Program-made: the position numbers and the translations under genes
Shown here: piece after piece, positions 44,539 through 54,830 of the stretch
How the letters are laid out: each line of letters opens with the position of its first letter
How positions within the stretch are numbered: the stretch's first letter is position 1
Notes under the pieces: model-generated
Databases searched by the model: none
What the model was told of the DNA's origin: nothing
What the model saw: only the letters and a program-made list of their open reading frames with translations
DNA from: an uncultured Clostridia bacterium
GTDB taxonomy: Bacteria > Bacillota > Clostridia > Peptostreptococcales > Anaerovoracaceae
Assembly: GCA_944383465.1 (NCBI GenBank)
Contig: CALWPQ010000025.1
Location: 62,001 to 126,000 of the forward strand
DNA: 64,000 nt
Reading direction: 5' to 3'

Positions 44539-45495
44539 ATGAATATTGACGCACTGATAAACGGTTTGCCAGGTGCGGCGGCGCAGGGCCTTATATGGGG
44601 CATTGTAGCCATAGGAATATATATTACATATAAAATATTAGATATAGCGGATCTTACTGTAGATGGATCGCTCGGCACAGGCGGGGCTGTATGTGTTATG
44701 ATGATGCTTGCAGGCTATAGTAACGGAATGTCACTTGCAGCGGCGTTTGTTATCGGTATGGTGACAGGTTTAGTGACGGGACTTCTTAATACTGTTATGG
44801 GAATCCCGGCAATACTTGCGGGTATACTCACACAGCTGGGTCTTTACTCTGTAAACTTAAAAATTATGGGCAGCAGAGCTAATACGCCGATAAACCCCAA
44901 TAATTACGATCTGCTCGTATCGCTCCGCAATGTTAAAAATGTGCCGTTTTACGAAAATGCGATTTTTATAACAGCTGTTATTACACTTGTTATAGTTGCG
45001 ATTTTGTATTTGTTTTTCGGGACAGAATTCGGCTGTACGCTGCGCGCAACAGGCGGAAGCGAGGCGATGTGCCGAGCTCAGGGTGTAAATGTCGAATTCA
45101 ATAAAGTTGTCGGACTTACGATATCAAACGGATTAGTTGCGTTTGCAGGCGGCCTTCTCGCGCAGTATCAGGGCTTTGCCGATGTAAATATGGGGCGCGG
45201 GGCGATAGTTATAGGTCTTGCGGCTGTTGTAATAGGTGAAGCAATTTTTGGAAGAATATTCTCGAATTTTGCGCTCAATCTTATTGCAATGTCGCTCGGC
45301 TCAATAATCTACTATCTGGTGCTTCAAGTTGTTATCTGGAGAGGTCTTGATCCTCAGCTCCTCAAGCTGCTGTCAGCAATAATAGTTGCGATATTCCTGG
45401 CGATACCATACTTCAAGGGCAAGTATTTTAACGGAGTGATTTTAGCAAGACATAGCGGAAGCGAGAAAGGAGATGCCGAAAATGCTGGAAATTAA
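44539..45495 (+). CDS. ABC transporter permease (TrpY-like)
   Basis: This 318-residue permease has eight or nine helices and resembles the ribose/branched-chain (BPD_transp_2) class: GLIWGIVAIGIYITYKILDIADLTVDGSLGTGGAV, GLLNTVMGIPAILAGILTQLGLYSVNLKIMG, and TLRATGGSEAMCRAQGVN as the ATPase-coupling loop. It lies between binding protein and ATPase genes. A good AGCGGAGG precedes the ATG. Its C-terminus overlaps the ATPase start. Confidence 0.9.
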   Translation: MNIDALINGLPGAAAQGLIWGIVAIGIYITYKILDIADLTVDGSLGTGGAVCVMMMLAGYSNGMSLAAAFVIGMVTGLVTGLLNTVMGIPAILAGILTQLGLYSVNLKIMGSRANTPINPNNYDLLVSLRNVKNVPFYENAIFITAVITLVIVAILYLFFGTEFGCTLRATGGSEAMCRAQGVNVEFNKVVGLTISNGLVAFAGGLLAQYQGFADVNMGRGAIVIGLAAVVIGEAIFGRIFSNFALNLIAMSLGSIIYYLVLQVVIWRGLDPQLLKLLSAIIVAIFLAIPYFKGKYFNGVILARHSGSEKGDAENAGN

Positions 45496-46276
45496 GAATA
45501 TAAGCAAGACATTCAATGCCGGCACCATAAATGAAAAACGCGCGCTCGACAATCTTTCGCTTAAGCTTGATGAAGGTGATTTCGTAACTGTAATAGGAGG
45601 TAACGGTGCGGGTAAGAGCACGATGCTCAACGCTGTTGCGGGAGTGTGGAAACCGGATTTGGGACAGGTATTTATAGGCGGCGTAGATGTGACGAAGATG
45701 CCGGAGCATAAGAGAGCGAAGTTTCTCGGACGTGTATTCCAGGATCCGATGATCGGTACGGCTGCCAATATGCAGATAGAAGAAAACCTCGCGATAGCTA
45801 TGAGGCGCGGTAATAGGAGAACGCTAAAATGGTTTATAACCAAGAAAGAGAGAGAGTCTTATAGAGAAAAGCTTGCGGAGCTCGGACTCGGACTCGAAGA
45901 CAGGTTAAAGAGCAAAGTCGGACTCCTTTCAGGAGGCCAGAGACAGGCGCTTACGCTGCTTATGGCGTCGCTGAAAACGCCGAAGCTTCTGCTTCTCGAT
46001 GAGCATACGGCGGCACTCGATCCGAAAACGGCTGCAAAAGTGCTCGAACTTACCGACAAGATAGTAAACGAAAATAAGCTGACGACGCTGATGATTACTC
46101 ACAATATGAACGATGCTATAGCGTACGGCAACAGGCTGATAATGCTGTCGGACGGCAAGCTAATTCTCGATATAAAGGGAGAGGAAAAAAAGCATCTGAC
46201 AGTGGAAAGTGTGCTCGCTAAATTCTACGAGGTGAGCGGCGACAGCTTCGCCGACGACAGTACATTGCTCGGATAG
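45482..46276 (+). CDS. ABC transporter ATP-binding protein (TrpZ-like)
   Basis: This ATPase of about 264 residues has Walker A GGNGAGKSTM, signature LLSGGQRQALTLLMA, and Walker B LLLLDEHTAALD with a His where most have Pro. The switch His is in TLMITHNM. The start is put at ATG 45482 because AAAGGAG lies 9 bp upstream, while ATG 45473 directly abuts it. It overlaps the permease gene by 14 bp and ends the transporter operon before a hairpin terminator. Confidence 0.9.
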   Translation: MLEIKNISKTFNAGTINEKRALDNLSLKLDEGDFVTVIGGNGAGKSTMLNAVAGVWKPDLGQVFIGGVDVTKMPEHKRAKFLGRVFQDPMIGTAANMQIEENLAIAMRRGNRRTLKWFITKKERESYREKLAELGLGLEDRLKSKVGLLSGGQRQALTLLMASLKTPKLLLLDEHTAALDPKTAAKVLELTDKIVNENKLTTLMITHNMNDAIAYGNRLIMLSDGKLILDIKGEEKKHLTVESVLAKFYEVSGDSFADDSTLLG

Positions 46277-46330
46277 ATAAACGGCAAATAAAAGTATATT
46301 TATAAGCATATAATAAATAACAATATGTTG

Positions 46331-46375
46331 AAAACGCGCCCCGGTGCTTTGTAAGACAGGATCGGGACGCGTTTT
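46331..46375 (+). terminator. terminator after the ABC transporter operon
   Basis: AAAACGCG (46331-46338) pairs with CGCGTTTT (46368-46375), with inner CCC/GGG pairing, and T-rich sequence follows. It isolates the recombinase gene from upstream transcription. Confidence 0.65.
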
Positions 46376-46461
46376 CTGTTTTCTTTTGGTCATTGCAGGT
46401 ATAAAAAACACTCCTGATTAAAGAATATAAGTAGCCTGAACAAACTAAAGGAGGAGTTTTT

Positions 46462-47310
46462 ATGACGTATATATTAAAAAATTCAAGCATTGCTGAATAT
46501 AAAAAGCATTTGGCGCTGGAGGAAAAAAGCAAAAGCACCATTGAGAAGTATATGAGAGATATTCAAAATTTTTATGCGTATTTATCAGAAGACAAGAACA
46601 TTGATAAGGAAAAGGTTATTCATTTTAAAGAATCTTTGCTGGAAAACCGTGCGGTCAGCACAGCTAATTCTGCAATTGCAGCTTTAAACGGCCTGTTTTC
46701 CTTTCTGGGATGGGATGAGCTTAAAGTTAAGCCTTTTAAGCAGCAGCGCCGCATTTTTCGCGACAGGGAAAAGGAGCTGAATAAGGCGGAATATCTGCGG
46801 CTTTTAAATGCTGCGAAGCAAAGAAATAATCAGAGGTTATTTTATATTATGGAAACATTATGCGCTACCGGCATCCGGATTTCGGAATTGCAGTATATTA
46901 CGGCAGAGGCTGTGAAAAAAGGTATATGTACGGTAAACTGTAAAGGAAAGATAAGGACAATTCTTTTGCCGAAAAAACTGATCAGGTCTTTAGAAAAATA
47001 CTGCAAGGTAAACGGGATTATGACCGGTGCGGTATTTATTACAAGAAGTGGCAGGCCTATGGAGCGGACAAATGTATGGGTTGAAATGAAAAAACTTTGC
47101 AAAGATGCAAAGGTAGATTCGGGCAAAGTCTTTCCGCATAATTTCCGGCATTTATTCGCAGTTTGTTTTTATAATTTGGAAAAAGACATAGCCAAACTGG
47201 CGGATATTTTAGGACATGCCAGCATAGATACAACACGTATTTATATTATGGAAAGTATAGAAGAACATGCAAGGCAGATAGAGAGGCTGGGACTGGTCAT
47301 ATCAATATGA
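46462..47310 (+). CDS. tyrosine recombinase, probable DNA invertase of the adjacent switch
   Basis: This 282-residue tyrosine recombinase of the XerC/D type has all catalytic residues visible: R139 (ATGIRISEL), K161/K163 (CKGKIRT), H226 and R229 (HNFRHLF), H252 (LGHAS) and Y261 (TRIYIM). An N-terminal SAM-like core-binding domain lies at about 5-95. There is no phage or transposon gene nearby. Its stop codon lies inside the left arm of an inverted repeat that flanks a promoter segment, so it most likely inverts that segment. Upstream, ACTCCT (46410-46415) could pair with AGGAGT at 46452-46457 and mask its ribosome-binding site. AAGGAGG precedes ATG 46462. Confidence 0.9.
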   Translation: MTYILKNSSIAEYKKHLALEEKSKSTIEKYMRDIQNFYAYLSEDKNIDKEKVIHFKESLLENRAVSTANSAIAALNGLFSFLGWDELKVKPFKQQRRIFRDREKELNKAEYLRLLNAAKQRNNQRLFYIMETLCATGIRISELQYITAEAVKKGICTVNCKGKIRTILLPKKLIRSLEKYCKVNGIMTGAVFITRSGRPMERTNVWVEMKKLCKDAKVDSGKVFPHNFRHLFAVCFYNLEKDIAKLADILGHASIDTTRIYIMESIEEHARQIERLGLVISI

Positions 47311-47333
47311 CAGAATGACAATTCCGTTATTAA
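47310..47333 (+). repeat. left inverted repeat / recombination site
   Basis: The repeat starts ACAGAATGACAATTCC and its reverse complement is exact at 47582-47605. Around it, TATGACAGAAT (47306-47316) and ATTCCGTTATT (47321-47331) are imperfect mirror arms around GACA, as in tyrosine recombinase core sites. Confidence 0.85.
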
Positions 47334-47491
47334 ACCATTTTATGAGAGAATGTAATTACATAATAAGTAATTCTATAATGCAAAAAAGCAAGAAAAGTGA
47401 TATCTGCATATTTATCTTTGCATAAAAAAACAGTACTATAAATAGACCGTCAAAAAATAAGATTTTTGTGGTATCTTTTTTAGTAAATTAC

Positions 47492-47520
47492 TTGTAAAAG
47501 TATGTCCAATGTTATATACT
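47492..47520 (+). promoter_or_regulatory. promoter inside the invertible segment
   Basis: TTGTAA (47492-47497) and TATACT (47515-47520) are separated by 17 bp and point to the SLH gene at 47742. Transcription would start near 47527. I see no comparable promoter between the right repeat and 47742. Confidence 0.65.
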
Positions 47521-47581
47521 TATATGCGATAGCATTGTTTTTATACATATTGAGAATAAACGTATGATTTTGCAAAGCCGC

Positions 47582-47605
47582 TTAATAACGGAATTGTCAT
47601 TCTGT
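47582..47605 (-). repeat. right inverted repeat / recombination site
   Basis: This is the exact reverse complement of 47310-47333. The core has arms AATAACGGAAT (47584-47594) and ATTCTGTTATT (47599-47609) around TGTC, inverted relative to the left GACA. A GTTATTAAACCATTTT direct repeat (47326-47341 and 47604-47619) follows both cores. Confidence 0.85.
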
Positions 47606-47741
47606 TATTAAACCATTTTTAAGCTAAGAAATTAGCCGCTTAATCTGTTTATTTAAAAATAAATGACAGCTTAAATGGAGGGTGTCATTGAAAGTTTGTT
47701 TTGAACAATGCTGATTAAAAGATTTTAAAAGGAGGATGAAA

Positions 47742-50700
47742 ATGAAAAGACGAATACTGATAGCAGTTTTATCTCTCTGCATGGTTGTAACTATGTTGCC
47801 GCTTTCCATCTATGCAGCAGAAGACGGGATTGATGATATCAATACTGATGGGATAAACACGCTTTCTTTGGAAGGTGAAGGAACAAAAGAAAGTCCTTAT
47901 CTTTCTGCGGATGAAAGTACGCTGGCAGAAGCGGTGGCGGCAGGCGGATATATTAAGCTGACGGCTTCCTTTGCAGGTCAAGGTCTGACAGTAAATAAAG
48001 ATGTTACGCTGGATTTAAACGGTCAGACACTTACATTTAACCATGTCGGCAGCGAAAATATTGAAACTGGATTTACTGTAGACGCAGACGGCAGTTTGAC
48101 TATTACAGACAGTGCAGAAGGAGCCGTGGGCAAGGTGACCGCGGAGGAAAAATGTTTTGATGATAAACAACATGCTTTTTATGTAGTTAAAGTCAACGCT
48201 AACGGTGAATTTATACTGGAAGACGGTAAATTAGAAAATACATGGTATGATTTAGCCGCATCTCCTGTAATTTACAACAGTGGTACGCTTACGCTCAATG
48301 GCGGAGAGGTTAGCGGGACTACCTGCATCTATAACTGGGCTGTTGAAAATGCTGTTACAACAGTTAATGTAGAAAAAGACGCTGTTGTTGAAGGTGTGCC
48401 TTGCACAACGGATTCACTTTATAATAATCGCTATCTGGGTGCTAGCTACGGCCTTACCTGGATGGGTTTAGGCGTGGGAGAATCCGGCAGAGTGAATAAG
48501 ACAGAGACTCCTATCAACGATGCTATGATTATCAATATTAACGGCGGTAAAATTTCCGGCACGCAAGGTCTTGGTACAAACGCATCCAATGGCAGCTATG
48601 CCGGCTTTACACTGAATATTACTGATGGATTGATCGACGGCGGCGCCGACGGCACAGGTGCATACATTCCTGCTTTGGGCGTTATCAATATTTCCGGCGG
48701 AACTATAACCGGCGCGCAGGGAATACGTATTGCGGCCGGAGAGCTGAATATTACCGGCGGTGAAATCATCGGCACGAAGTGCAGCGATGGCGAAGATTTA
48801 ATTGCCGGCGGCAGCGGCGGAACCTTGGGTGCTGTCGTTATCGGCAAGGCGAGCTCCGGATATGTCGGCGATGTCAAAGTCACAGTTTCCGGAGAAACTG
48901 TAGTTAAAAATACTTCAGATGAAAGCGATACACCGAGACCGGCTATCGTTGTTTCTGATAAGAATATGGCAAATGCCGACTACGGTTATCAAGATGCTTC
49001 TATTTCTGTAGTCGTTGATGGCGGTGAGATCGCCGGTGATATTGTTAAGATCTCCAATCTTAAAAAAGGAACTACTACACAGGACGGCGGCAATACTAAT
49101 CTCACAGTTAAAAACACCACGGTTTCCGGCGATGTTATTAACCAGAGTAAAACTGGTCTTACCGTTGAAAATGGAACGGTAACAGGAGATATAACAAACA
49201 GCTCGAGCGGCTCTGTTTTAGCAAACGATACTGCAATTGAGGGCAATTTAACAAATAGTTCAGACGGCTCCATTGTCGTACTCGGCAGTTCAAAAGTGAA
49301 TGGAGAAGTGAAGAACGACGGAATGGAAAGCGGCGGCAGCCTTTATATCGAGAACGACGAGAATAATGCCGATAAAGGTGATACTGTTGCTGTTTCAATA
49401 AATAGCGGCAAGCTTTATGACAGTTTGGAAGAAGCAATTAACGAAGCAGTTTCCGGAGATACGATTACACTGCTTGATAACGTGGAGCTTGCGGCGACGC
49501 AAAATATTACAAAGGATCTGACGTTGAACCTGAATGGTCATACTGTAACAGGAAATGACGTCCGCGCTTTTCAGGTAAAAGAAGGTACGCTGAGCTTAAC
49601 AGGTGAAGGTACGGTGACCAGTGTAAGGGCAGAAAACGATAGCCAGCTTGCCGAAAGCAGTTCTGTAATCCGCGTTGGTGACAACGATGGTGATGGCGGC
49701 AGGGACGCTGCGCTTATCATAGGCGAAGATGTTACTATCAGCGCTCCAGCAACTTATGGGGTATCCGTCTTTGGCTCTAAAACAACAGAGACAGTGACTG
49801 TATTCGGCACGATTGAGGCTGTTCCTGCAGCGGCCATTGCGGGCAATGGCTCTGCCGGCTATGAAGGAACTACCATTATCATTAAAGACGGAGCGGTGCT
49901 GGAATCCGGCTCTGATGAGATCAATGAGAATCCGGCGATTTACCATCCGCAGGCAGGTGAACTTATTATCGAGGGAGGTACAATCTCGGGTGCAAGCGGT
50001 ATTGAAATGAAGGCGGGCACATTGACTATTACCGGCAGCCCTACAATTACAGCGACAGCTGAGGTAGATCATAATAAAAACGGCAATGGGCCGTCTACCA
50101 AAGGATATGCGGTAGTTGCTGTAGAAAATGATGCTTATGCCGGCGCAGTTAAAGTGCAGCTTGACGGCGGAAATTATGAAGGTAAGGTTGCTATTGTCAG
50201 CGATAATGATGAAGGAACCGACCCAGGCGAAAAGGCTGGAGATATTGAAATTTCCGGAGGTAAGTTCTCAGATACGGAGGGTCTTAATGAATATCTTGCT
50301 CCTGGTAAAAAACTGAGCAGCAACGGAACTGTAGTGAAAAAATCTTCAGGAAGCAGTAGTAGTAGTGCTGCATCTTATTCGGTTACTGCGCCGTCAAAAG
50401 TGGAGAACGGTTCAATTTCCGTTTCACCAAAAAATGCGGATAAGGATAAAACAGTGACAATTACAGCAAAAGCAGATGAAGGCTATGAATTGTCCAAGCT
50501 GATAGTTAAAGACAAAAACGGAAATGAAATCAAGTTGACAAATGCAGGCAATGACAAGTATACATTTACAATGCCTGCGGGAAATGTAACGATTGAGGCA
50601 GACTTCAGCGAAGCTGTAAAGCAATTGCCATTTAAGGATGTTTCCAAGACAGATTGGTATTATGAAGCGGCAAAATATGTTTATGATGAGGGAATGATGA

Positions 50701-51161
50701 GCGGAACAGCGGACGATTTGTTCAGCCCGAACATAAGCACAACACGCGGTATGATTGTTACGATTCTCTATCGTTTGGAAAAAGAACCGACTGTTTCCAA
50801 TAGTTCGTTCAGCGATGTAAGTGAAAATGCTTACTATGCGAAAGCAGTTGCCTGGGCAGCTACAGAGAATATCGTAGGTGGTTATGGCGACGGCAAATTT
50901 GGACCGGAGGATCCAATTACACGCGAACAGCTGGCAGCAATCCTTTATAGATATGCACAGTATAAAGGCACTAACAATTCCAACACTGCGGATCTCTCGG
51001 TATTTACTGATGCTGCAAGCATAAGTGAATATGCGGAAGATGCTATGCGTTTTGCAGTCGGAAATGGCATTATGAATGGAAACGGTGATGGAACGATCAA
51101 TCCGACAGGCACGGCAACACGTGCCGAGGCAGCTCAGATGCTGATGAATTTCTTAAAATAA
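47742..51161 (+). CDS. phase-variable candidate: secreted beta-helix surface protein with SLH anchor
   Basis: This surface protein of about 1139 residues starts at ATG 47742, seven bases after GGAGG (ATG 47736 is too close). The signal peptide covers 1-25 (RRILIAVLSLCMVVTMLPLSIYAA). Residues about 55-870 are repetitive, with many LTLNGG, GTLTITG and NISGGTI strands, as in right-handed parallel beta-helix adhesins or lyases. I see no catalytic motif. A Ser-rich hinge (SSGSSSSSA) and a bacterial-repeat domain (KVENGSISVSPKNADKDKTVTITAKA split around 890-955) follow. Three SLH repeats (about 963-1139) then anchor it to the wall. They closely match those of the SLH peptidase at 5945. Its only good promoter lies in the invertible segment. 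Adhesion or carbohydrate binding is a guess. Confidence 0.85.
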   Translation: MKRRILIAVLSLCMVVTMLPLSIYAAEDGIDDINTDGINTLSLEGEGTKESPYLSADESTLAEAVAAGGYIKLTASFAGQGLTVNKDVTLDLNGQTLTFNHVGSENIETGFTVDADGSLTITDSAEGAVGKVTAEEKCFDDKQHAFYVVKVNANGEFILEDGKLENTWYDLAASPVIYNSGTLTLNGGEVSGTTCIYNWAVENAVTTVNVEKDAVVEGVPCTTDSLYNNRYLGASYGLTWMGLGVGESGRVNKTETPINDAMIININGGKISGTQGLGTNASNGSYAGFTLNITDGLIDGGADGTGAYIPALGVINISGGTITGAQGIRIAAGELNITGGEIIGTKCSDGEDLIAGGSGGTLGAVVIGKASSGYVGDVKVTVSGETVVKNTSDESDTPRPAIVVSDKNMANADYGYQDASISVVVDGGEIAGDIVKISNLKKGTTTQDGGNTNLTVKNTTVSGDVINQSKTGLTVENGTVTGDITNSSSGSVLANDTAIEGNLTNSSDGSIVVLGSSKVNGEVKNDGMESGGSLYIENDENNADKGDTVAVSINSGKLYDSLEEAINEAVSGDTITLLDNVELAATQNITKDLTLNLNGHTVTGNDVRAFQVKEGTLSLTGEGTVTSVRAENDSQLAESSSVIRVGDNDGDGGRDAALIIGEDVTISAPATYGVSVFGSKTTETVTVFGTIEAVPAAAIAGNGSAGYEGTTIIIKDGAVLESGSDEINENPAIYHPQAGELIIEGGTISGASGIEMKAGTLTITGSPTITATAEVDHNKNGNGPSTKGYAVVAVENDAYAGAVKVQLDGGNYEGKVAIVSDNDEGTDPGEKAGDIEISGGKFSDTEGLNEYLAPGKKLSSNGTVVKKSSGSSSSSAASYSVTAPSKVENGSISVSPKNADKDKTVTITAKADEGYELSKLIVKDKNGNEIKLTNAGNDKYTFTMPAGNVTIEADFSEAVKQLPFKDVSKTDWYYEAAKYVYDEGMMSGTADDLFSPNISTTRGMIVTILYRLEKEPTVSNSSFSDVSENAYYAKAVAWAATENIVGGYGDGKFGPEDPITREQLAAILYRYAQYKGTNNSNTADLSVFTDAASISEYAEDAMRFAVGNGIMNGNGDGTINPTGTATRAEAAQMLMNFLK

Positions 51162-51190
51162 ATTGTAAATTGAGATCATAACTGAAATTT

Positions 51191-51214
51191 AAAAGGGAGC
51201 TTTAGCTCCCTTTT
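51191..51214 (+). terminator. terminator of the SLH protein gene
   Basis: AAAAGGGAGC (51191-51200) pairs perfectly with GCTCCCTTTT (51205-51214) around TTTA. It works in both directions. Confidence 0.8.
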
Positions 51215-51246
51215 AAATTGACTAAGCTCTATAGCTCAAAGCCTTT

Positions 51247-51270
51247 ACCTATAAACCTATATACCTATAA
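51247..51270 (+). repeat. three tandem 8-bp repeats
   Basis: ACCTATAA, ACCTATAT and ACCTATAA stand head to tail between the terminators of two convergent genes. No function is evident. Confidence 0.6.
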
Positions 51271-51275
51271 AATTT

Positions 51276-51303
51276 ATGAAGCCACAGCTTAGTGTGGCTT
51301 CAT
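51276..51303 (-). terminator. terminator of the PBP1A gene
   Basis: ATGAAGCCACA (51276-51286) pairs perfectly with TGTGGCTTCAT (51293-51303) around GCTTAG. It lies 22 bp beyond the stop of the minus-strand PBP1A gene and has A/T-rich tails on both sides. Confidence 0.7.
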
Positions 51304-51325
51304 TTAATTGCTGTTTATTTTTTGC

Positions 51326-54325
51326 CTATAACCAGTCTGGAGGCGGCTGTTCAACGACGGGAGAGGTTTGCGTATTACCGGAGCTGTCAGTATTGCCGTC
51401 AGTAGATGTGTTGCCATCCGTATTGCCGTTATTTTCATCACCCCACGGATTACTGTCGATTACAGGTGGGTCTGTAATATCAGGATCCAAGAGATCTTCC
51501 GGGTCATCCATTATGATATCGTCTCCGCCGACGGCATCGCCGCTGCCGCCGTAAGCCGGGTCAATAGGGTATGTTCCCGGATCAGGATTGTGCAGCTGGC
51601 AATAGTAATGCGGCAGCTCGTATTCTATATCACCCACAACAGGATTTACGGCATAAGGACGCATAACTCCAAATCGCGAATATGTTGACGGGCAGAGAGG
51701 CGTTGCCAGATATCCTGTATACGAGCAGGCTGTAACAGTTTTGTGTACATTATCGTATTCCGTCGGCTCAGTACCTTTTATGAAATATTCCCAGCGGATT
51801 GTTCCGCGCGTATCAGCCCGTGAAAGGTCTGTCGGCAGCAGTCCGCTCTTCGTATCTATTTCGAGGGCAATTACATTTTCAGGCTGTGAAGGGTAAGTGC
51901 CGGTAGGAATATTTGCGCATACCTGACTCATAATTTTGCGCCATACAGAAGTTGCTGCAGCAGAGCCTCTGGTGAGCTCAATATTTACATCGTTTCCGAT
52001 CCATACTGCCGCTGCATACTGCGGAGTAAAGCCTACAAACCAGGCATCGTAATTATCGGTTGTGGTACCGGTCTTACCGGCTACAGGCTGATTGCTGAGT
52101 GCGGCACCGCTTCCGAGGCCTTCTGTAACGACTGAGCGGAGTATATCCGTCATAATAAACGCCACGCCCGGATCGACAACGTCTTCGCTGTACGATACCT
52201 TTTCCAGTATTGTTTCGCCATGCTTATTGGTAACGGTAGTATAGGCAGCAGGTTCAACATAGACGCCGCCATTGGCGTAGACTCCGTAAGCCGCTGCCAT
52301 TTCGAGAGGTGAAACACCATTTGACATACCTCCGAGTGCAAGTGCGGCGGCGTTCATATCATTGGTATCGCCGTCGCGCACTATCGTCGTGATGCCGAGG
52401 TTTTCGCCATAGTCGGCGGCGTATTCGACACCGACCTGCTGGAGTACCTTTACAGCGTTGACGTTCACGGACTGCTGTACGGAAGTCCGCAAGGTGTAGA
52501 GGCCGCGGAAACCTGAATACCAGTTCTTAGGCCACTGTCTGCCGCCCGAAATCATAGGAGAATCGTCGATGACAGAGGCGGCTGTAAAGTATGTGCCATA
52601 TAAATTTTCTATCTCGTTTCCGTTGTTGTCATAAGTTATGAACGTAGGCGTACTGCCGCCGTTCATTATTTCGAGACTCTGCTGGAGTGCCGCTCCGTAT
52701 ACGGTAATCGGCTTGATTGAGGAGCCTGGCTGACGTGGATTTACAGCTCTGTTAAAGAGCTTTACGCCGACAGTGTTTCTGCCGCCCGCCATAGCTTTTA
52801 TCTGTCCGGTCTTGTAATCGAGGATGACCATTGCAGACTGTGGCTGCACTACGCGCTGCTTGAGCGAATAGTGCTGGGCGTCAACGAAAAGATTGCCGTT
52901 TTCATCTGTTCTTATATAATTTGCGTAGTCGCTGTTTTCAAACATCTTAGCGCTGATAATGGCATTTTTCTCACTATCGCGCGATTTATACTGCTGCGGT
53001 ATGAGTATCGTGCCTCCTTGAATGCTGTAAAATACATCGTCTTCTATTATATATAGGTTTTTAAATTCTATTGACACATCGCTGTTTCCCTGGACAGTTG
53101 TCTGATAGAAGTTTAGACGCTTGCCGGTGTACAGCTTGAGGTCGCCGTTTGAAAGCCATTCATATTCGTCAGGAGCGAAGTAGAAACGTCCTTCTTGGTC
53201 AAAGAAATTGTTATAGTTATATAAAAGTATGTTGCCGTTTTTTCCGAGAACATTGCCATCGGCATCGCGGGAAAGGTTGGCTACCCCAGGGAAATTAGCG
53301 TTGTTTGAAAATTCGGTATCGACGATTTTCTGCATGCTGGTATTCATTGTGGTATAAATCTGGAGACCGCCGGTATAAACCTTATCGCGTGCTTCGGAAT
53401 AATCAATATTGTTTTCCGCAGCATAGTCCTGTATTACCTGTTCGATGGCGTAGTCTGAGAAATACGATGAGATTTCCGTGAGACTGCTGATATTCGGGTT
53501 GATGTGGTCGAGAAGATTTTCGGCAAGCGCTGCGTCGCGCTCTTCTTCAGTAATCATTCCCTGTTCACACATATTTTTAAGTGTCAGATTTCTTCTGCTT
53601 TCGGAAGCATCTCCGTTATAGACGTAGGTGTAGTCGCTGCCTTCATATATTATGATATCTTTTTCGGGGTCGACATCCTCAGGATTGTATTTCTTTATGA
53701 GCGCGAACTTTGTCGGCGCTTTTGGAAGAGCTGCGAGAGCAGCGCATTCAATGAGATCAAGCTCGCCTACATCTTTTGAGAAATATGACTGTGCAGCTGC
53801 CTGTACGCCATATGAGTCAAAACCAAGGTTGATGGTATTGAGGTAGGCTTCGATAATCAGCTCCTTGGAAAGGGCGTTTTCTATGAGCACCGAGTAGTAT
53901 GCTTCGGCTATCTTTCTTTCGAGGGAGCGGACTTCGCGTGATTCTGTTAGATAAACATTTCTGGCGAGCTGCTGGGTAATTGTGCTTGTACCGCTTATTT
54001 GACCGCCAGAAACTATGGCGTCTCGTATAGCGCCAAATATTCTTATGATATTAAAGCCATTGTGATCCCAGAATGTCTTATCCTCGATGGCGATGAACGC
54101 ATTGACGAGGTTATCCGGGAGATCCTCGAATTCGATGTTGGTGCGCGTTTCACCGCTGCCGACGGTGGCGATGATATTGCCTTCGTCATCGTAGAGCACT
54201 GAACTTTCGGAAAGCATCGAGTAGATGTTATCCGGGTTTATTTCCGGTGCTTTGATGATGACAACCGCGGCGTATGCGCCGACTATGAGCACCATAACGA
54301 GAAATATGCATGCGAAGAGACGCAC
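51326..54325 (-). CDS. class A penicillin-binding protein 1A (main frame)
   Basis: This bifunctional peptidoglycan synthase has 999 residues in this frame. One membrane helix (about 3-24) precedes the GT51 transglycosylase domain with FIAIEDKTFWDHNGFN and TSTITQQLARNVYL. The transpeptidase has RQPGSSIKPITVY (SxxK), QQSVNVNAV (SxN) and VAGKTGTTTDNYDAW (KTGT). A Gly/Asn/Thr/Pro-rich tail ends it. The frame begins only with a GTG (54325) that has no ribosome-binding site. Upstream it runs back through a Lys-rich stretch to a TGA. The normal N-terminus is in another frame (54228-54830), so the gene appears to be split by the A9 run at 54364-54372. Confidence 0.9.
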   Translation of the reverse strand: MRLFACIFLVMVLIVGAYAAVVIIKAPEINPDNIYSMLSESSVLYDDEGNIIATVGSGETRTNIEFEDLPDNLVNAFIAIEDKTFWDHNGFNIIRIFGAIRDAIVSGGQISGTSTITQQLARNVYLTESREVRSLERKIAEAYYSVLIENALSKELIIEAYLNTINLGFDSYGVQAAAQSYFSKDVGELDLIECAALAALPKAPTKFALIKKYNPEDVDPEKDIIIYEGSDYTYVYNGDASESRRNLTLKNMCEQGMITEEERDAALAENLLDHINPNISSLTEISSYFSDYAIEQVIQDYAAENNIDYSEARDKVYTGGLQIYTTMNTSMQKIVDTEFSNNANFPGVANLSRDADGNVLGKNGNILLYNYNNFFDQEGRFYFAPDEYEWLSNGDLKLYTGKRLNFYQTTVQGNSDVSIEFKNLYIIEDDVFYSIQGGTILIPQQYKSRDSEKNAIISAKMFENSDYANYIRTDENGNLFVDAQHYSLKQRVVQPQSAMVILDYKTGQIKAMAGGRNTVGVKLFNRAVNPRQPGSSIKPITVYGAALQQSLEIMNGGSTPTFITYDNNGNEIENLYGTYFTAASVIDDSPMISGGRQWPKNWYSGFRGLYTLRTSVQQSVNVNAVKVLQQVGVEYAADYGENLGITTIVRDGDTNDMNAAALALGGMSNGVSPLEMAAAYGVYANGGVYVEPAAYTTVTNKHGETILEKVSYSEDVVDPGVAFIMTDILRSVVTEGLGSGAALSNQPVAGKTGTTTDNYDAWFVGFTPQYAAAVWIGNDVNIELTRGSAAATSVWRKIMSQVCANIPTGTYPSQPENVIALEIDTKSGLLPTDLSRADTRGTIRWEYFIKGTEPTEYDNVHKTVTACSYTGYLATPLCPSTYSRFGVMRPYAVNPVVGDIEYELPHYYCQLHNPDPGTYPIDPAYGGSGDAVGGDDIIMDDPEDLLDPDITDPPVIDSNPWGDENNGNTDGNTSTDGNTDSSGNTQTSPVVEQPPPDWL

Positions 54326-54830
54326 GAGCTTCTTTACATTGATCCTGTATTTCTTTTTTCTTCTTTTTTTTTCCGGTCATTGAACTTCCTACTGCTGAGT
54401 TTTCCGCACTTTCGGAGTTGTCTTCATCTACGAGAAACTCTTCTTTTGCCTTTCTGGAAATTTTGGAGAAGAGAACTTCACATTTTTCCGAGATGCTCGA
54501 GGCAATACCGGAAAATCTGTTGCGCTGTTTGCGCAGTTCTTTTTCCTCGGCGAGCCTTTCGCTCCTTGTCTTCCTTTTTTGAGCATCAGTGCTGCTTAAA
54601 AATTCTGCGATAGCTTCTTCCTTTAATATATCGGCGTCGGCAGCGCTTTTCACGGAATTATTCTCTGAAAGCGCGTCAGTGTGTTTATTACCGCTGCCGG
54701 CAGTGTCGTCTTTGTTAAGTCCTTCGGCAATTTCGTCAAACTGAGCGAAAAAGTCGTCGATTTCATTCGACTCGGAGAAAAACTTGTCATTATTTTCACC
54801 TGATTTGTCGTTTCTGTAATCGTCACTCAA
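54228..54830 (-). CDS. cytoplasmic N-terminal part of PBP1A, out of frame with the rest
   Basis: A frame from TTG 54830 (AGGTGA upstream) encodes an acidic, Ser/Asp-rich cytoplasmic region of about 155 residues with a coiled stretch (TRSERLAEEKELRKQRNR). It ends in MTGKKKKKK. After the poly-A tract it reads nonsense to a stop at 54228. The other frame continues with KKYRINVKKLVRLFACIF, the expected membrane entry of PBP1A. Long acidic or basic cytoplasmic tails are common in clostridial PBP1A, so these two frames are probably one gene of about 1165 codons. Confidence 0.6.
   Translation of the reverse strand: MSDDYRNDKSGENNDKFFSESNEIDDFFAQFDEIAEGLNKDDTAGSGNKHTDALSENNSVKSAADADILKEEAIAEFLSSTDAQKRKTRSERLAEEKELRKQRNRFSGIASSISEKCEVLFSKISRKAKEEFLVDEDNSESAENSAVGSSMTGKKKKKKEIQDQCKEARASLRMHISRYGAHSRRIRRGCHHQSTGNKPG
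54364..54372 (-). other. A9 homopolymer at the PBP1A frameshift
   Basis: Nine T on the plus strand (A9 in the coding strand) lie just before AAG and six more A. Losing one A would join the two PBP1A frames. Such tracts are prone to replication slippage, transcription slippage and sequencing error. Confidence 0.7.

Follow-up and report, generated by a model that had tools for sequence, protein, structure and literature searches.

Does the tyrosine recombinase gene that ends at a short inverted repeat at this locus control the large surface-layer homology (SLH) protein gene behind it, by inverting the promoter that lies between the two repeat arms? We analyzed a window of 64,000 nt (the whole stretch of DNA studied, with no Rfam matches and no tRNA genes), and the arrangement is best explained by site-specific promoter inversion by the adjacent recombinase, which we consider very probable based on the sequence and its relatives. 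The features involved are as follows (window coordinates):

46330-46376, + strand: terminator-like hairpin (predicted function) with 19-nt arms (84%), followed by a T-rich stretch
46462-47310, + strand: Xer-like tyrosine recombinase of 282 aa, complete open reading frame with domain matches
47308-47329, + strand: left site core, TGACAGAAT-GACA-ATTCCGTTA, with the centre GACA at 47317-47320
47310-47333, + strand: left arm of a 24-bp perfect inverted repeat, the exact reverse complement of the right arm
47334-47581, no strand assigned: invertible segment of 248 bp, about 25% G+C
47492-47520, + strand: candidate promoter TTGTAA-17-TATACT facing the SLH gene
47582-47605, - strand: right arm of the 24-bp inverted repeat, an exact match to the left arm
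47586-47607, - strand: right site core, with the centre TGTC at 47595-47598, the reverse complement of GACA
47730-47735, + strand: ribosome-binding site AGGAGG, read from the sequence
47736-51161, + strand: secreted surface protein of 1141 aa with a signal peptide, beta-rich repeats, Flg_new_2/InlB B-repeat and three C-terminal SLH repeats

The recombinase open reading frame is intact and its last base is the first base of the repeat, in agreement with the preliminary description of a complete tyrosine recombinase ending at the repeat edge. A domain search of 46462-47310 recovered Phage_integrase (1e-24) and an N-terminal SAM-like domain, and the R, K, H-x-x-R, H and Y motifs can be read in the protein (TGIRISEL, KGKIRT, HNFRH, LGHASI and IYIM). 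The nearest named families are XerA and XerD. The protein matches no curated equivalog by NCBIfam cut-offs, scoring below those for XerD (121.9 versus 329.6), XerC (109.5 versus 335.15), XerA (145 versus 220) and XerS (64.9 versus 267), and also below those for FimB/FimE-type invertases (26.1 versus 221 for NF007370; 19.2 versus 222 for NF007371). The hairpin at 46330-46376 sits behind an upstream ABC ATPase (ABC-transporter) gene and probably closes it off; thus, the recombinase would have its own promoter.

The 24-bp perfect inverted repeat noted earlier (47310-47333 / 47582-47605) is exact on re-checking, with 248 bp between the arms; it extends to 27 nt at 96%, and each arm is in itself an imperfect palindrome. 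Short inverted repeats thus surround a segment that is intergenic save for the recombinase stop codon, as in invertons. Sites of tyrosine recombinases consist of two half-sites around a short asymmetric centre. The right core (47586-47607), when reverse-complemented, reads TAACAGAAT-GACA-ATTCCGTTA. Because the centres match in the inverted sense only, exchange between the sites would produce inversion and not excision. The partner of the left core matches it at 21 of 22 positions, versus a maximum of 16/22 in 300 shuffles of the downstream kilobase. Beyond these two, no copy of the site occurs elsewhere in the genome (1.72 Mb, 43 contigs; three mismatches allowed), and we therefore reject the idea that the recombinase acts on another, remote target. 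The left recombination site includes the recombinase stop codon TGA (47308-47310), which comes ahead of the crossover region, and therefore inversion would leave the protein unaltered.

Promoters were scored with an approximate sigma-A-like matrix of our choice and judged against dinucleotide shuffles. The TTGTAA-17-TATACT promoter reported toward the SLH gene is present at 47492-47520 on the + strand, and nothing promoter-like lies between the right arm and the gene, as had been claimed. Taken by itself, this promoter is weak, unremarkable and not above chance: it scores 9/12, in a region that holds five promoter-like sites versus 6.7 expected, with p=0.42 for the segment alone and p=0.09 when restricted to the position usual among recombinase homologues.

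The product of 47736-51161 combines a signal-peptide-like N terminus (MKRRILIAVLSLCMVVTMLPLSIYAAE) with C-terminal SLH repeats (three stretches; PF00395, 3e-36), and can be classed as SLH-anchored. The spacing from AGGAGG suggests that the true start is the second ATG, at 47742. Of the earlier assignment as a secreted beta-helix/SLH protein, the SLH repeats stand; the beta-helix is plausible only, coming from a poor beta-rich single-sequence model (pLDDT 47). BLASTP without filters aligns the two SLH proteins at 27% over 802 aa (E 3e-50).

In the proposed mechanism, the recombinase would bind four ~10-bp half-sites (roughly nnACAnAAT) in the two arms, and strand exchange in the matched 4-6 bp centre would turn the 248-bp segment around. 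As the window stands, the promoter at 47492-47520 would point toward the SLH gene (ON), giving a leader of about 215 nt; after flipping it would point toward the recombinase, leaving the SLH gene without a promoter (OFF). As the segment flips between ON and OFF, cells would randomly switch production of one surface-anchored protein. We infer catalysis by this recombinase, use of this promoter and ON/OFF expression in the strain. Promoter inversion is well supported by comparison with other genomes; the ON/OFF phase variation postulated before, with the given sequence ON, is a prediction for this strain.

The site pair and the gene order are directly seen, the cassette is conserved family-wide, and related genomes carry the same switch in opposite orientations. 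Recombinase homologues were found in 38 of 350 genomes from the same taxonomic family and in 62 of 391 sampled class-wide (one genome per species, mostly metagenome-assembled genomes, MAGs). We fetched 99 homologue loci (59 same family, 40 class-wide) and applied one procedure, which looked for a palindromic site behind the recombinase stop codon and, further downstream, for its inverted partner. The site motif was tuned on the first 59 loci and kept unchanged for the 40 class-wide loci, which were fetched later. Matched inverted sites were found just 3' of the recombinase stop in 75/99 loci (41/59 same family, 34/40 class-wide), and the centres of a pair are separated by 202-423 bp; run on sequence upstream of the recombinase gene, the procedure returned 0/54. 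It found no matched pair in the other 24/99 homologues; some of these are at contig ends, and others seem decayed or of another kind. In 73/75 pairs (39/41 and 34/34), both sites have the same 4-nt centre. In contrast, centres agree in 0.4% of between-locus comparisons, and outer half-site positions in just 59-73% of pairs. This is the best comparative sign that the sites are in use, because pair centres stay identical while flanks drift, as strand exchange demands.

Promoters are likewise a property of the family. The best sigma-A-like promoter in the 75 segments scores a mean z of 2.19 above shuffles, and in 64/75 the -10 box is found 20-70 nt away from an arm (23% expected). Of the promoters called with confidence (48), 20 point toward the target and 28 toward the recombinase, a split that would be close to expectation for random sampling of a two-state switch. 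The comparison of recombinase-linked homologues across genomes, which the preliminary description had proposed, thus revealed conserved matched sites and internal promoters in either orientation.

In the window's own genome one orientation of 47310-47605 was assembled. Its closest relative (L007; recombinase 76% identical) has a promoter TTGTAA-17-TAAGCT that faces the recombinase, and the two promoters lie almost equally far from the arm (67 versus 65 nt). The two segments align only when one is inverted (score 107.5; shuffles 51.2 +/- 10.0, maximum 92.5), a match that blastn extends over 225 nt (E 4e-9). With the segments reversed and the promoters facing opposite ways, the window is predicted to be ON and L007 OFF. 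A second pair of loci (L109 and L119) also has inverted segments, 80% over 236 nt, with recombinase genes that are 84% identical. Contig ends point indirectly in the same direction, as assemblers make such breaks when both orientations are present. In a relative (genome G309), the left arm's first base opens the recombinase contig (C6), the right arm's last base closes another (C55), and neither includes the segment. In G200, two contigs that overlap by 55 nt join up at an arm. Of the survey contigs, 11/59 end within 305 nt past the recombinase stop. The G309 and G200 breaks are as expected if both orientations coexisted, and contig breaks in MAGs can have other causes.

A terminator or attenuator switch of the cwpV kind would require transcription to start upstream and the flipped segment to complete a terminator at the right junction. 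When flipped, this junction (window 47560-47640) does yield a perfect 21-bp hairpin followed by UUUUU (AAAATGGTTTAATAAC...GTTATTAAACCATTTTT), with -23.3 kcal/mol versus -12.2 in the given orientation. However, we regard this mechanism as very unlikely, since in 22 confident cases among the homologous loci the OFF-orientation hairpin is more stable in 11 and less in 8, and the internal outward promoter is strongly conserved across the family. The OFF hairpin is not a family feature, and an OFF-state terminator is rejected as the general mechanism. In the window, a terminator effect may act in addition to promoter inversion, the flipped-state hairpin possibly being a local insulator. Another hairpin, internal to the segment, is common among homologues (z below -2 in 20/41) and lies upstream of the promoter in 11/13 confident cases; it is absent from the window segment (z 0.4).

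The single assembled orientation and the weak promoter could also indicate a cassette that once inverted and is now locked in the window species. We consider such a fossil switch very doubtful given an intact recombinase, a perfect 24-bp repeat with identical centres, and a closest relative in the opposite orientation. It is extremely improbable that the enzyme is a Xer-type or transposon integrase of the usual sort, with the repeat as its attachment site or transposon end and no regulatory role. Its closest named families are XerA/XerD, and at three homologous loci another integrase-like gene lies downstream. Against this, every curated Xer cut-off is missed by far and two other tyrosine recombinases in the genome lack such repeats, on which grounds we reject the general Xer/attachment-site reading. 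Nor do inverted site pairs 200-420 bp apart, enclosing a promoter and preceding varied targets, fit an attachment site or a transposon end.

Genomes with several cassettes mostly have different centres; for example, G331 has five cassettes with nearly the same half-sites (TCACGGAAT / TCACAGAAT) and five different centres. The centre may act as an address. A broader proposal, which we put forward only tentatively, is a portable class-wide cassette in which the 4-6 bp centre would be a private address and the OFF promoter, antisense into the end of the recombinase gene, would help to set the rate at which the switch flips. The near-identical G331 cassettes would then be independent because their centres differ.

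The genome encodes a second cassette outside the window (G000:C25:41558-45800; L011 5547-9799). Its recombinase is 49% identical to that of the window and has its own site, with the centre AGAT, in 26-nt inverted repeats 244 bp apart. The promoter (TTGACT-17-TATAAT) is strong and faces the recombinase (predicted OFF), and the target is an LPXTG/VWA pilin-tip-like adhesin of 1003 aa. Elsewhere, the first genes behind the switches encode SLH, CWB2, VWA, BspA-like LRR and SPFH proteins, a SipW-type signal peptidase, an HD-GYP/GGDEF response regulator and a second integrase-like protein. The latter has an integrase N-terminal domain at three loci (L043 and L071 by Pfam, L066 by eye), and these switches may control a further recombinase. 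At L149 (Subdoligranulum variabile OY725846.1), a third copy of the site lies inside the segment (TTACATAATGCAAATTATGTCA) and the target starts with a Wzz-like chain-length protein (by eye), which suggests a multi-state switch of a polysaccharide operon. At L068 (G241:C38), a recombinase-linked switch with diverged arms precedes the HD-GYP and GGDEF response regulator, a target that recalls the phase-variable c-di-GMP enzymes of C. difficile (PMC9286219).

In a sibling species (G226; L160, G226:C59:36000-41200), synteny with window 45355-54371 holds for the ABC ATPase and penicillin-binding protein genes on either side, and a different, arginase-like gene occupies the place of the recombinase-switch-SLH cassette. 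Thus, the cassette would be accessory and probably moves or is lost as a unit. Two cassettes with SLH targets lie elsewhere in the sibling genome. The isolate Pusillibacter faecalis MM59 also carries a recombinase (KJS55_RS16795), a switch with matched repeats and an SLH protein gene (KJS55_RS16790) in this order.

These findings amount to a recipe for picking out candidate phase-variable genes in single assemblies, with no need for reads: a recombinase of the family and, behind it, two palindromic sites that share their centre and lie about 250 bp from each other. In Clostridia, the candidates for random switching that it brings up are SLH and CWB2 proteins, pilin-like adhesins, BspA-like LRR proteins, SipW-type signal peptidases and c-di-GMP enzymes. 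Paired centres provide a testable rule for how several recombinase switches could share one genome without scrambling it.

Among known systems, cwpV/RecV of C. difficile shares with the window its class, Clostridia, and a DNA inversion in front of the gene for a large cell-wall protein (PMC2784873). The preliminary description cited it as an invertible promoter, which is the wrong mechanism: the cwpV switch segment has no promoter and no ORF, and the model proposed for it is a terminator switch, with the promoter outside the segment and RecV unlinked, whereas in the window the promoter is inside and the recombinase adjacent (PMC2784873). The assertion that such recombinases are usually unlinked also has to be corrected, since linked ones are common (fim, PMC2784873; BF2766/Tsr19, PMC4747536). 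The fim recombinases are encoded in the immediate vicinity of their switch, and E. coli fimS with FimB/FimE shares with the window linked tyrosine recombinases, a short promoter segment and an adhesin target (PMC2784873). However, fimS has two recombinases and the window one, and the window enzyme falls outside that NCBIfam invertase family (26 bits versus 221). In B. fragilis, BF2766/Tsr19 inverts a promoter immediately downstream of itself, and with IVp-I resembles the window in its tyrosine recombinase, directly downstream promoter and surface target (PMC4747536). Unlike the window recombinase, for which there is no second site copy, Tsr19 also inverts a distant promoter, and phylum and target differ (PMC4747536).

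A further close likeness comes from a 2025 Microbiome survey, which ties an inverton group (139; Clostridia in 32/33) to a tyrosine-recombinase (invertase) group (35) and observed flipping in two isolates, Clostridium sp. D5 and Intestinimonas butyriciproducens (PMC11892184). Like the window cassette, group 139/35 is from Clostridia and has a linked tyrosine-type recombinase; its coordinates span about 255-257 bp including arms, which is close to the window size (PMC11892184). Judged by class, linkage and size, invertase group 35 is probably the family of the window recombinase. As the survey already links group 139 to group 35 with flipping, the cassette type is probably not new. The main-text passages of PMC11892184 describe neither how the sites are built nor a rule of identical centres, and give no fixed promoter geometry or SLH targets; the window species is not known to belong to the survey groups. 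What is added here is this rule of identical centres, the geometry of the promoter and the range of targets, and the window cassette is one member of a widespread family of on/off switches, probably related to those that flip in cultured gut bacteria.
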